From an uncultured Sulfurimonas sp. (GTDB taxonomy: Bacteria; Campylobacterota; Campylobacteria; Campylobacterales; Sulfurimonadaceae): a stretch of 33,562 nt of DNA. Position 1 is the first letter of the stretch, and every line of letters starts with the position of its first letter. The position numbers were made by a program, and so were the translations under genes. The stretch is from the NCBI GenBank assembly GCA_937900945.1, contig CALCGG010000087.1:1-33562 (forward strand), read 5' to 3'. The notes under the pieces are model-generated. The model made no database searches and had not been told where the DNA came from. It saw only the letters and a list, made by a program, of their open reading frames with translations. Of this stretch, positions 1 to 4,240 are shown one piece after another.

Positions 1-1836
1 ATTTAAATGCTCTATCCTCTCACTGAGTACAAGAACTTTTCTATCTTGTAATTTTACAATCTCGCTGATTATTAATTCATTCCTGTCAAAGTCTTCTATA
101 ATTTCACCGAGAATCATGGTAAATTCATTTTCATATGCTTCAAATTTAGTGCGGACACTTCTCAAGACATGTGTTTGTTCTTTCTCTCTTTTTACTTCAT
201 GTACTATATCTCCACATTGCATCGACATAATTGGATGCATGCCATCTTGCCTTTTTGGTGTAGCACTTAAAGCAACAACATATTTACCTCTAAAAAATTT
301 TAGTGGCACTTCAAATGAAACTGCTGGAATGTGATGCGCTTCATCTATTATGATTTGCGAATAATCTTCGATAAGTTCAGGTCTATTTTTTAGTGATTGC
401 AGCATAGCAATGTCAATATTTGATGTTAATTTCTTTTTACCTTTGCCAAGCTGTCCAATTGTTTTTTTATCAATTTCAAAATATTCGCTGAGTCTATCTG
501 CCCATTGTTCTAGTAAATTGATTTTATGCACCAAAATCAGAGTATTAACGCTCCTCTTTGCAATAACAGCAGAAGCGATTGCTGTCTTTCCAAATCCCGG
601 AGGTGCTATCAAAATAGCATAATCATTTTTCAAAATTTTATCAAAAGCCATTTTTTGATTATCTCTTAATTCTATAGTTGATTTTGGTTTATCAATCTTT
701 TTAGTAAATCTTTTATCTTCAATAGTGAGCGTTGCTTTATTGGATGCGAATAATGTTTGTACTTTTGTAATTAATCCCCTTGGTAAAATAACATATCTCT
801 CGTTCATATCAAAGAGAGTAATAATCCTAGGAATGTTAAATGTTGATTTTCTAAGGTTTTGGCGAATATAAAATTCTGGATTCGTAAAAGAGGCTAGTCT
901 TTGAAGCGTATTTAAAAGTATTTTTGATAACTCCATTTTTTCAATATAAAGTGCTTCATATATAATTGCTTTAGTAGTTTTTGGAAAAGAGATAGGTTTA
1001 TTTTGTTTAATCTCCCATGGCATGAGCGAATCTAGAGCATTTATATTTGAAACTATATTTGTTTGCAAAAGATTTAGCAGGTTGGTGGAAGATATTTTTG
1101 TTGTAAATTTTAAAATATTCCACTGATCTGGAAACGCTTGCATCGTATCAATATCGATAAACACCGTTTTATATTCAGTTCGTGAAGTATATTGAAGTGG
1201 AAGTGCGACTAAATTACCAAGTGCGTCTGGAGCTACAAAATCTTGATTAGGAAACATCCTGTCATAACTGCTCATATCGATACCATTTCCAATATCCATA
1301 GCTTTAGTTATTAAAATATCCCCAAGTTTTCTAGCACTGCTAGCCAGCACTAAACCATCAAAGAAAAACCAGAGATGAATACCGTTACCTGATTTTGAGA
1401 GTTCTATCAATGGAATAATCTTCAACTCTTTACAAATCTGATTTATAGCTCTTGTATCTTCAATAAAACTTGCTTTATCTAAATCAATCACCAGAAATTT
1501 AGCCATTGTTTGGTTTATAACAGCATAACTGCCAAGTCTTATTTTTCCTTCTAAGTGTTTTTGGATTATGTTATCATCTATGGGAACATAATCGTTGCCC
1601 CTAAAAGTGTATGCTACAGGAGAGTATCCTTTTTTAGTGCCATCTTTACTTATCCAGTAAGTTGGATATACATCTTCGCGAGCAACAAAAAGTGATTTAA
1701 ATAAGGAGATTTTTTGTTCTTTGGAGAATGGGGATAATTTTTCTATAGTTTGTTTGGTTTTAAGTATCTCTTTTTCGATTGACTGCTTTTGTGATTCTAG
1801 TAAGCTTAGCTTGGAATAGAGTTCAGGTAGTTGCAT
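1..1836 (-). CDS. TOTE-type primase-like / SF2 helicase defence protein (C-terminus off window)
   Basis: Open for 612 codons from the ATG at 1836 to the left edge with no stop, so the C-terminus is missing. Seen in the translation: a helical N-terminus (about residues 1-35); an archaeo-eukaryotic-primase-like region with the acidic pair VIDLD (D118, D120), SGNGIHLWFFF (149-159, H154) and SYDRMFPNQ (190-198); then an SF2 helicase with Walker A APPGFGKT (411-418), DEAH box (498-501), motif III SATP (524-527) and the beginning of the second RecA fold at the edge. This order and these motifs match the primase-helicase proteins called TOTE conflict systems, predicted from comparative genomics to act in anti-invader defence. 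The role here is inferred. It is the last visible gene of a minus-strand unit, 14 bp after a 61-residue ORF and behind a zeta-like kinase. No strong ribosome binding site precedes the ATG, so translation may depend on the upstream gene. Confidence 0.87.
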   Translation of the reverse strand, partial: MQLPELYSKLSLLESQKQSIEKEILKTKQTIEKLSPFSKEQKISLFKSLFVAREDVYPTYWISKDGTKKGYSPVAYTFRGNDYVPIDDNIIQKHLEGKIRLGSYAVINQTMAKFLVIDLDKASFIEDTRAINQICKELKIIPLIELSKSGNGIHLWFFFDGLVLASSARKLGDILITKAMDIGNGIDMSSYDRMFPNQDFVAPDALGNLVALPLQYTSRTEYKTVFIDIDTMQAFPDQWNILKFTTKISSTNLLNLLQTNIVSNINALDSLMPWEIKQNKPISFPKTTKAIIYEALYIEKMELSKILLNTLQRLASFTNPEFYIRQNLRKSTFNIPRIITLFDMNERYVILPRGLITKVQTLFASNKATLTIEDKRFTKKIDKPKSTIELRDNQKMAFDKILKNDYAILIAPPGFGKTAIASAVIAKRSVNTLILVHKINLLEQWADRLSEYFEIDKKTIGQLGKGKKKLTSNIDIAMLQSLKNRPELIEDYSQIIIDEAHHIPAVSFEVPLKFFRGKYVVALSATPKRQDGMHPIMSMQCGDIVHEVKREKEQTHVLRSVRTKFEAYENEFTMILGEIIEDFDRNELIISEIVKLQDRKVLVLSERIEHLN

Positions 1837-1850
1837 TAAATGATAAAACT

Positions 1851-2036
1851 TTAATGACTTCCTACATAGGATACAAATTTTTGGTGAACACTCTCTTCAA
1901 ATATAACAATATCACCAATGATTTTATCAGCCTTTTCTATAACTTCCTCTTGTCTTTCAGACATAGACTTCATTGCCTGGGCAATAAACTTTTTCCTATT
2001 CTCTGGTTTTAATAATGGGCTTATTGGTTTCGTCAT
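1851..2036 (-). CDS. 61-residue helical protein between kinase and TOTE gene
   Basis: A short, charged, mostly helical protein (the middle reads SMSERQEEVIEKADKIIGD) with no signal peptide, membrane segment or cysteine. I recognise no family. Its ATG overlaps the stop of the upstream zeta-like kinase by 4 bases, the usual sign of translational coupling, and the TOTE gene starts 14 bp after its stop. The position and size suit a kinase antitoxin (epsilon-type antitoxins are small helical proteins) or a small accessory subunit of the defence operon. Both readings are inference. In classical epsilon-zeta and PezAT loci the antitoxin gene comes first, so the order here would be reversed. Confidence 0.7.
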   Translation of the reverse strand: MTKPISPLLKPENRKKFIAQAMKSMSERQEEVIEKADKIIGDIVIFEESVHQKFVSYVGSH

Positions 2037-2704
2037 TTCAAACCTTCATACTTTGGTATTATTTTTTTAAATTCATCACAACTAATATCTTCATGATAAC
2101 TATCATCTCTTTTATCAATCACATTCAAAATGATACCATCGTGAAAATTTTTTTTAATGTCAAAAGCTGTACTTCTTGATTTTATTACACTATTAAAAAA
2201 CACATCTTCTGGAACAACTCTTTTTGTTACTGATTCTCTTTTTTTAGTATAAAGAAAACATGTTTCTAAATCATTATAAATATAAAATATCTCTACTTTA
2301 TAGTTTTGCTTTAATAATTTTACCATATTTTCTTTTGCTGTTTGAAAATGAGATAAATTGGAATCAACTACCAAGGAGAGTTCTCTATTGATTATAGCTT
2401 CATCGAATAAGAACTGAACACCCCAACTTGCAGGTTTTTGAAATATATCACTGTTGCTTCCATCATAGCCAACAGGTATAAAAAAATCTCTAACTTTATC
2501 TATATCTAAATGCACCAAATTACTTTCAACCTCTAAAAATTGTTGAATAAATTCCGTTTTACCAACACCACTTGGTCCTGCAGTAAAATAAGCTACTTTT
2601 TCTTCTATAGGAAAATATTTATCAAGATATGTCTCGAATAAAAATTTTCTATTGACTTTTAAATATTTTATAGCTTCTTTCTCAACTTCGACTTTGCTTT
2701 TCAT
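2033..2704 (-). CDS. Zeta-toxin-like P-loop kinase
   Basis: 223 residues, with Walker A GPSGVGKT at 43-50, then HLDIDKVRDFF (66-76), the position of the catalytic Asp/Arg segment in zeta toxins, a strand-loop VVDSN, and a basic C-terminal segment TKKRESVTKR resembling a lid. Zeta/PezT enzymes phosphorylate UDP-N-acetylglucosamine and block wall synthesis, although many relatives use other substrates, so the substrate here is unknown. It is the first gene of the minus-strand unit that continues into the 61-residue ORF (4-base overlap) and the TOTE protein. Its coupling to a predicted anti-phage helicase suggests an abortive-infection effector rather than a plasmid-maintenance toxin; this is inference. 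It could also be a non-toxic nucleotide or nucleoside kinase of the same fold. Confidence 0.8.
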   Translation of the reverse strand: MKSKVEVEKEAIKYLKVNRKFLFETYLDKYFPIEEKVAYFTAGPSGVGKTEFIQQFLEVESNLVHLDIDKVRDFFIPVGYDGSNSDIFQKPASWGVQFLFDEAIINRELSLVVDSNLSHFQTAKENMVKLLKQNYKVEIFYIYNDLETCFLYTKKRESVTKRVVPEDVFFNSVIKSRSTAFDIKKNFHDGIILNVIDKRDDSYHEDISCDEFKKIIPKYEGLK

Positions 2705-3112
2705 AAGGTGATTATACCTAAAATAAAATTCAAAAATGAGAACTCTAAATTACTCCAAAATATGTAGACCATCTCACGAAGCTAACTTATATTAAATGAT
2801 TGGAAAGGCCAACTTTTTGTAAACTATTTTCAATTAAGTCAACCACTCATATTGTCTTCAAAAAAGATAATTATTCCTTATCATGATTATTCAGACTATC
2901 AAGAAGTTCACAACCCGATTCAAGTAGCTGCTCAAACCTCTTTCAAACCATTTATATACAATACTTCTCTGCTCTTTTTTAATTTAATATTTTTCGATTT
3001 GATAGCCTAATGGCGGCTTGATTTATTGATTCCTATTTAACTATATTTATAATACTCGTTTAATTTATTTAACTTATACTTTAGTAATGAAAAATTTACT
3101 CAGGAGTATATA
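2705..3112. other. Intergenic region between divergent defence-island genes
   Basis: About 400 bases between the divergent zeta-like kinase and the 375-residue protein. It must hold both promoters; the plus-strand one is given separately. No tRNA, CRISPR repeat or convincing ORF is visible. A 23-codon open stretch on the minus strand (2871-2942) is acidic and helix-like, as a decayed gene end would be, but is too short to call. The sequence is very AT-rich. Confidence 0.6.
3026..3053 (+). promoter_or_regulatory. Putative sigma70 promoter of the 375-residue protein gene
   Basis: TTGATT (3026-3031), a 16-bp spacer and a perfect TATAAT (3048-3053) on the plus strand. The leader to the ATG at 3113 would be about 50 nt and carries AGGAG at 3102-3106, six bases before the start. 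In an AT-rich genome TATAAT alone is weak evidence; the spacing and downstream ribosome binding site support it. Confidence 0.5.
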
Positions 3113-4240
3113 ATGATTAAGTTTATAAATAGAGAGCAACTATATAAACAAGTTTGGAGAGAGCCTTTTACAAAGTTAGCTCCTAAGCATAATGTATCGG
3201 CAACAGACCTCAGAAAATTATGTAATAAATTCTTAATACCTGTACCACAACTTGGTCATTGGCAAAAAATAGCCTTTGGTAAGATAGTAGAGATGCCAGC
3301 ACTACAAAGTTATAAATATTTTAGTTTACGAATCAAAAAGAAAAAAGCTATACCTAAAATAAAAGAAATAGTAGCAGCTATAAAATTAGCAAAGCCTATT
3401 GTTCGACCCCCTAAGAAGCATAAAATTACTGTAAAAAATACATTAACAAGCCCACATCCTATTATCACAAAAACAAGAGATAGGTTGAAATCTCAAAAAC
3501 CAGATGAGTATGGAATGATAGTATCAGGAAGAGACTGCGCAGATATTAGAATATCACCAGTTAATTACAAACAAGTGCTTAGAGTCTTAGATGCTCTATT
3601 TAAGTGGTTTGAAAAGAAAGGCTATAAGGCCGATGTTGCTAATGGATATGGTACTTATATTATAATAGATGAAGAAAAAGTACAGATTGCAGTAGAAGAA
3701 AAAGCACAAGTCACAAAGACAACTTTGGTTAATAATGGATATTGGACACATACCGAGCGTGAATATACTCCAAGTAATAAAATATCTTTACTTATTAAGA
3801 GTTATGGTGGCAATTCTCGGAGAACATGGTCAGCTGGGAAACTATATACACTAGAAGAGCTTTTACCAAGTTTTATAGATGGAATATTTGACTTTGTAAC
3901 TGCAAAAAAAGAAAATAAGATTAGAAGAGAAAAGGAAGAAAAAGAACGAGAAGAAGCTCGTATTTTAAAAAAATATAATTTACACTGTGCAGAGTTAGAA
4001 AAAAACATGATAGAGCAACTTGAAAAGCAAGCTAAAGATTGGAACTTTACTATGCAACTTCAAAGTTATATATTAGCTGTGGAAGCTAAAGCGAAAGATC
4101 AAAATAAAAATATCCCTATAGATACTTTCAAATGGCTAGAATGGGCAAATCAACATCTAGATAAGATTAATCCTTTAAAAGGTGCTCTACCATCTTATAC
4201 TAAAGCAAAAAAGCTATTAAAGATAGAAGATATTGAATAA
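3113..4240 (+). CDS. Uncharacterised protein with HTH-like N-terminus
   Basis: 375 residues. The first 60 residues (NREQLYKQVW, TKLAPKHNVSATDLRKLC, IPVPQLGHWQKIAFGK) resemble a conserved N-terminal module seen in hypothetical proteins of bacterial genomic islands. Its alternating helices with a short turn suggest a helix-turn-helix DNA-binding unit. A basic linker follows (about 73-110), then a middle alpha/beta region, a strongly charged coiled coil (about 262-310) and a C-terminus with W-L-E-W-A, LDKINPL. No enzyme motif, signal peptide or membrane segment is visible. The ATG has a good AGGAG. It stands alone between the TOTE/kinase unit and an integrase stump, which suggests island cargo. 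Its function is unknown. Confidence 0.75.
   Translation: MIKFINREQLYKQVWREPFTKLAPKHNVSATDLRKLCNKFLIPVPQLGHWQKIAFGKIVEMPALQSYKYFSLRIKKKKAIPKIKEIVAAIKLAKPIVRPPKKHKITVKNTLTSPHPIITKTRDRLKSQKPDEYGMIVSGRDCADIRISPVNYKQVLRVLDALFKWFEKKGYKADVANGYGTYIIIDEEKVQIAVEEKAQVTKTTLVNNGYWTHTEREYTPSNKISLLIKSYGGNSRRTWSAGKLYTLEELLPSFIDGIFDFVTAKKENKIRREKEEKEREEARILKKYNLHCAELEKNMIEQLEKQAKDWNFTMQLQSYILAVEAKAKDQNKNIPIDTFKWLEWANQHLDKINPLKGALPSYTKAKKLLKIEDIE

Follow-up and report, generated by a model that had tools for sequence, protein, structure and literature searches.

The window analysed here, a stretch of 33,562 nucleotides from an uncultured, sulfur-oxidising Sulfurimonas sp., begins with three genes that lie head to tail on the minus strand. 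The leading gene (2033..2704) encodes a 223-aa zeta/PezT-like kinase (Pfam Zeta_toxin PF06414, E=4.4e-23); it is followed by a small ORF of 61 aa, a candidate antitoxin (1851..2036), whose start lies 4 nt inside the kinase frame and, after a gap of 14 nt (1837..1850), by a gene for a PrimPol (AEP-TOTE) protein with an XPB-like SF2 helicase (1..1836; PF22548, E=1e-66; PF04851 (ResIII), E=1.5e-22). Because base 1 of the window is the end of the contig (G000:C87:1), the helicase frame continues beyond it, so that 612 of ~738 residues are present and the last ~126 are missing; the Helicase_C part was supplied by full-length helicase relatives. The three reading frames, the 4-base overlap and the 14-bp spacing agreed with the preliminary description, and its proposal of a single transcription unit was supported by the common orientation of the genes and by the fact that no terminator-like site was found in window positions 1-3400. 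Six nucleotides upstream of the kinase ATG lies a TATAAT box (2711..2716, minus strand), which from its sequence would be the -10 element of a kinase promoter. The string TTTTAGrTATAAT was also present immediately 5′ of the kinase start in loci L043 and L049, within different flanks. On the other side, a divergent ORF of 375 aa (3113-4240) adjoins the kinase gene and was not matched by any Pfam, NCBIfam or PADLOC family.

The kinase has the Walker A motif, the catalytic Asp and the Arg of the zeta family at the sequence level. Twelve kinase relatives showed invariant residues at Walker A (G43..GKT(E)), at an HxDxDxxR motif (H65, D67, D69, R72) and at R156 and R162. The nearest solved relative was PezT (2p5t), which was matched by the kinase profile (E=6e-9) and by the profile only, since a phmmer search of the PDB with the single kinase sequence returned no match. 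An AF2 model of the kinase built from two sequences reached a pLDDT of 57.5 and was set aside. Taken together with the type of helicase, this family assignment bears out the earlier view that a kinase of the growth-inhibitor type lies next to a helicase of the defence type. From its sequence the kinase is a probable toxin and, by analogy with characterised zeta toxins, it would probably phosphorylate a nucleotide-sugar such as UDP-GlcNAc. No kinase-encoding viral contigs were found.

The 61-aa protein matched no family, either in Pfam at the family cut-off or in the other family searches. In every kinase relative of at least 43% identity whose 3′ end was available, an ORF of 61-72 aa overlapped the kinase stop by 4 to 20 nt. 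The small partner proteins fell into two alignable types and one unlike both; the 61-aa and the 67-70-aa types have in common the core AxxxhxxxQxxxhxKADxIxG. These features point to the 61-aa protein as the probable antitoxin of the kinase. An additional ORF of 80-95 aa (MQTKFQPMLLLTVNNSI...) was seen 5′ of the kinase in L044, L045, L165 and L168, with a remnant in L169, and was absent from the window; it could be a third component or the real antitoxin.

The product of the third gene carries an AEP/PrimPol domain (aa 41-254; 1075..1716, minus strand) with intact DxD and SxH catalytic motifs, which appear as DLD and, within the pattern SxSGNGxHxW, as SKSGNGIHLW. The N-terminal lobe of the SF2 helicase (aa 388-529; 250..675, minus strand) contains Walker A (PPGFGKT), DEAH and SAT motifs. 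The AF2 model of its full-length sister in L060 (pLDDT 86.6) matched the folds of XPB/UvsW and of CAPP Prim-Pol, and the predicted Prim-Pol domain gave TM values of 0.78-0.80 to CAPP structures 7nqe/7nqd. Both the helicase and the PrimPol active-site motifs are intact in TA-linked copies.

The order zeta kinase, small gene and helicase was also found in three further Sulfurimonas genomes (L044/L062, L045/L061 and L049). The DNA homology between the window and L049 begins 24 nt before the kinase start and continues through the helicase gene. Because the same three-gene order recurs, the arrangement is more than chance. Recurrence of the kinase beside TOTE genes, on which the first interpretation of the locus depended, was therefore seen in four Sulfurimonas genomes and did not extend to other TOTE genes, which had a chemically unrelated TA, an AAA_14/DUF4143 gene or nothing at that place. 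In two of the loci a second TA, composed of a small gene and a VapBC-like PIN-domain toxin, lies downstream of the zeta-small-TOTE unit (L045:14985-15616 and L049:6779-7413).

The kinase and its small partner also occur as a pair away from TOTE genes, in nine loci (L043, L046 and L165-L171). A further pair, a zeta kinase with a 67-aa protein, is found inside a Wadjet operon, inserted between the JetA and JetB genes (L172:6520-12674; PADLOC JetA 2.7e-145, JetB 2.7e-62, JetC 0), and the module is therefore present in two different defence-type operons. The kinase/small pair is thus independent of the helicase and is not its dedicated partner. In L046 (9807-13396), adjacent to a type I restriction locus, inspection by eye showed parts of the pair twice, flanking two AbiE-like genes; one TA has apparently been inserted into another.

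In other loci, different modules occupy the slot upstream of the helicase gene. These were RelB-YafQ in L051/L060 (Pfam YafQ 1.4e-26, RelB 1.2e-16), AbiEi-AbiEii in L052, L053/L066, L055, L065, L067 and L070 and in plasmids L158 and L159 (AbiEii 2.8e-32), a different zeta pair in L014 (Pfam zeta 1.1e-10) and the single-gene partner AAA_14/DUF4143 in L050/L078, L069, L077, L082 and L054 (AAA_14 6e-31). Among more distant relatives the partners were HipBA in L138 and plasmid L160 (HipA 1.3e-49), VapBC in L110 (Pfam PIN 1e-15), AbiE in L112, L130 and L132, MNT-HEPN in L131 (Pfam NTase_sub_bind 1.7e-34), HigBA in L256, a DUF1016 nuclease in L114 and L136, and AlbA_2 proteins in L115 and L123. The gaps between helicase and partner were mostly 2-38 nt in Campylobacterota and the polarity was fixed in most loci; the TA sometimes lay 3′ of the helicase gene, as AbiE does in L157 and VapBC-like genes do in L045 and L049. 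Some helicase genes had no upstream partner at all. Directly before the helicase gene of L068 we found what is left of an AAA_14/DUF4143 protein, 11 residues of its C-terminus; L073 keeps 26 residues of such a protein before its contig ends. In L061 the kinase frame is broken and the small gene and the helicase gene are intact; the break lies in a T-run and may be an assembly error. We count the remnant in L068 and the broken kinase in L061 in favour of a partner that would be dispensable to the helicase.

The history of these exchanges could be read from a maximum-likelihood tree, in which the helicase of the window was sister to that of L060, which carries RelB-YafQ (support 100/97), within a zeta-bearing clade. 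Similarly, L078, with AAA_14/DUF4143, was nested among AbiE-bearing helicase genes. Over 22 Campylobacterota helicase genes at least 10 partner changes were required, with the lack of a partner counted as a state. Comparison of the window with L060 placed the breakpoint precisely: 1836 nt are homologous at 86% DNA identity, starting from the A of the helicase ATG (base 1836), so that the 14-nt gap marks the junction between the exchangeable module and the helicase gene. In the comparison of L078 with L066, homology began 1 nt before the helicase ATG. These results show that unrelated TA modules have been exchanged at the same place on one helicase gene.

Enrichment was evaluated in the 54 loci whose 5′ side could be read; 62 genes taken from the same neighbourhoods served as controls, with genes called by a simple longest-ORF script and some rows classed by eye on top of Pfam. 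The upstream chain contained a classical TA in 17 of the 54 helicase loci and in 3 of the 62 controls (p=1.4e-4); when any TA or toxin-like gene was considered, the figures were 27/54 and, counted generously, 6/62 (p=1.3e-6). Both counts include related, non-independent loci, and after collapsing to distinct acquisitions (11/48) the enrichment was still observed (p=5e-3). Nineteen of the 54 loci had no same-strand gene of at least 55 aa within 250 nt upstream.

The PrimPol-helicase itself is widespread. Its relatives were found in 90 plasmid records at E<=1e-60, and a DNA search of 5426 complete E. coli genomes gave matches in 868 of them. Copies in this species (L161, L261) lie within AlpA/YfjI/Gp2 elements, the L261 copy having DprA and Zorya genes beside it; in PGAP annotation the E. 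coli relatives are called TOTE AEP protein. A phage origin was rejected, the fused protein being nearly absent from viral contigs: among the best 80 matches in viral contigs only one ran far enough along the protein to enter the AEP domain, and no phage record had a match that covered at least 80% of the query. A tRNA as general insertion site was also rejected, as tRNA-Asn lies nearby in L049 and L061 only. The Arcobacteraceae homologue has a fixed place in a leuS-folC-type neighbourhood (folC and leuS named by eye) and lacks a TA. Housekeeping-like fixed loci of this kind were seen in Arcobacteraceae and near relatives (L056-L058, L083-L104, L106, L111, L120 and L126), and Arcobacter vandammei has both kinds of gene (L070, L103). 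Three aligned Arcobacteraceae copies (L056-L058) have lost the PrimPol motifs (DLD to ELN, SGNGIHIW to SYNSLFAW); because these residues are replaced and the helicase motifs kept, the sequences suggest a domesticated helicase. Apart from this, about 60 members of the genus encode a ~180-aa protein with a weak AEP-TOTE profile match (E 1e-4 to 1e-6), seen for example at L032:1387-1929, next to a glyA-like gene, and at G000:C50:40944-41354; it is possibly a degenerate stand-alone AEP-like domain.

We consider it reasonably probable that the locus combines an exchangeable, self-contained TA with a defence-type PrimPol-XPB helicase gene transcribed behind it, and that the TA serves mainly for addiction or as a fallback growth arrest. 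One unit would be a two-gene TA, made of the zeta/PezT-like kinase and a small antitoxin encoded downstream, that moves independently; the other would be the gene for a PrimPol-XPB-type double-stranded DNA helicase, which resides on plasmids and in regions that are mobile or rich in defence genes. The TA would fill the slot immediately 5′ of the helicase gene, with the helicase start codon as the junction, and its promoter would drive the helicase gene. While the locus is expressed, the antitoxin would restrain the kinase; if the locus were lost, or if an invader shut off its transcription, the labile antitoxin would decay and the kinase would stop growth. Addiction is assumed here from other TA systems. 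The helicase would act on invader DNA, viral or plasmid, independently and with no contact with the toxin required. It would not be needed to hold the toxin in check, because the partners as a rule come with antitoxins of their own.

The preliminary description had proposed that the helicase senses invader nucleic acid and that the kinase is its effector. As a dedicated pair this was rejected, because partners are exchanged and kinase pairs stand alone. In a broader form, the PrimPol-helicase would detect invader DNA and free whichever toxin lies upstream, leading to abortive infection with the different toxins as alternative plug-in effectors, an arrangement like that of retron or CBASS operons. 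In its favour are the tight coupling and largely fixed polarity of the genes, the way in which different toxic activities have repeatedly taken each other's place at this position, and the intact helicase and PrimPol active sites of TA-linked copies. Against it, most partners are complete TA pairs that include an antitoxin, and their toxins are chemically so unrelated that a common protein interface is unlikely; a sensor-effector link would have to work for kinases, ribonucleases and nucleotidyltransferases alike. Moreover, the same kinase pair exists without TOTE and some TOTE genes have no partner or a mere remnant, although a trigger shared through antitoxin decay is possible. We therefore regard this explanation as unlikely, and a direct sensor-effector link as less likely than an addiction or fallback module. 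Its strongest version, in which the PrimPol-XPB helicase is a common core that gates any TA docked at its 5′ side and unrelated toxins are interchangeable effectors of one DNA-sensing machine, seems to us quite improbable.

It could also be that the two kinds of gene merely gather in mobile islands, where the TA lends its promoter and no joint role exists. TA modules are common in such islands, so that shared insertion sites may explain some of the adjacency. Some loci do lie in TA-rich surroundings, including L170 and L171, where zeta pairs adjoin other TA modules (by eye), plasmid TOTE genes without TA adjoin a resolvase gene and Tn3-type transposase sequences, and the 19 loci with an empty upstream chain fit this explanation as well. 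Yet the enrichment of TA modules was measured against controls from the same neighbourhoods, their placement was repeated independently on the same side and at the same junction, and several species of the zeta clade have kept the arrangement, all of which make mere neighbourhood an unlikely explanation. Under the preferred reading of an exchangeable TA ahead of a defence-type helicase, an odd single operon becomes a testable rule, namely that the start codon of a widespread PrimPol-helicase gene is a repeated docking site for different TA modules, with a toxin that looks like a plug-in unit and not like a dedicated partner. This bears on the open question of what TA modules do in defence islands, where they might act as selfish addiction devices, as immunity backups or as effectors, and close helicase homologues with different partners represent natural swap experiments.

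With respect to known systems, the kinase resembles epsilon-zeta/PezAT in its P-loop kinase fold family (PF06414), Walker A and the positions of the catalytic Asp and Arg, although its overall identity to PezT is too low for phmmer alone. It differs in that the partner gene lies downstream, encodes 61-72 aa among relatives and matches no antitoxin family; no epsilon/PezA-related antitoxin is encoded upstream in the window. Toxin-first order is known from few TA systems, among them AvrRxo1-Arc1, in which a zeta-like kinase gene is followed by that of a small antitoxin (PMC4938570). The likeness to it, compared for gene order only, lies in the small gene directly after the kinase, whereas AvrRxo1 is a secreted effector of ~420 aa. 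The acronym TOTE stands for TPR, OB, TBP and Effector (PMC12458937). The label holds for the window insofar as the AEP-TOTE domain (PF22548) is present, and fails for a TOTE system proper: a canonical system was ruled out, since no TBP (PF00352) gene was found in the 99.95% complete genome. No TPR-OB/CSD gene was seen in the operon or among the scanned neighbour proteins, the gene 3′ of TOTE being off the contig. Our searches found no literature on TOTE with primase and none linking PrimPol-helicases of this type with TA modules; the original TOTE review lay outside the search, so priority is uncertain. The modelled Prim-Pol fold is like that of CAPP and the helicase matches archaeal XPB and phage UvsW, but, unlike CAPP, the Prim-Pol of the window is fused to a helicase in one chain and none was seen in a CRISPR locus. 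Finally, CreTA is a TA nested in a CRISPR-Cas locus and proposed to enforce retention of that locus (PMC12737573). The loci described here likewise have a TA nested in a defence locus; CreTA, however, consists of two RNAs, and its antitoxin depends on Cascade, whereas the helicase loci carry ordinary protein TA modules that have been exchanged.
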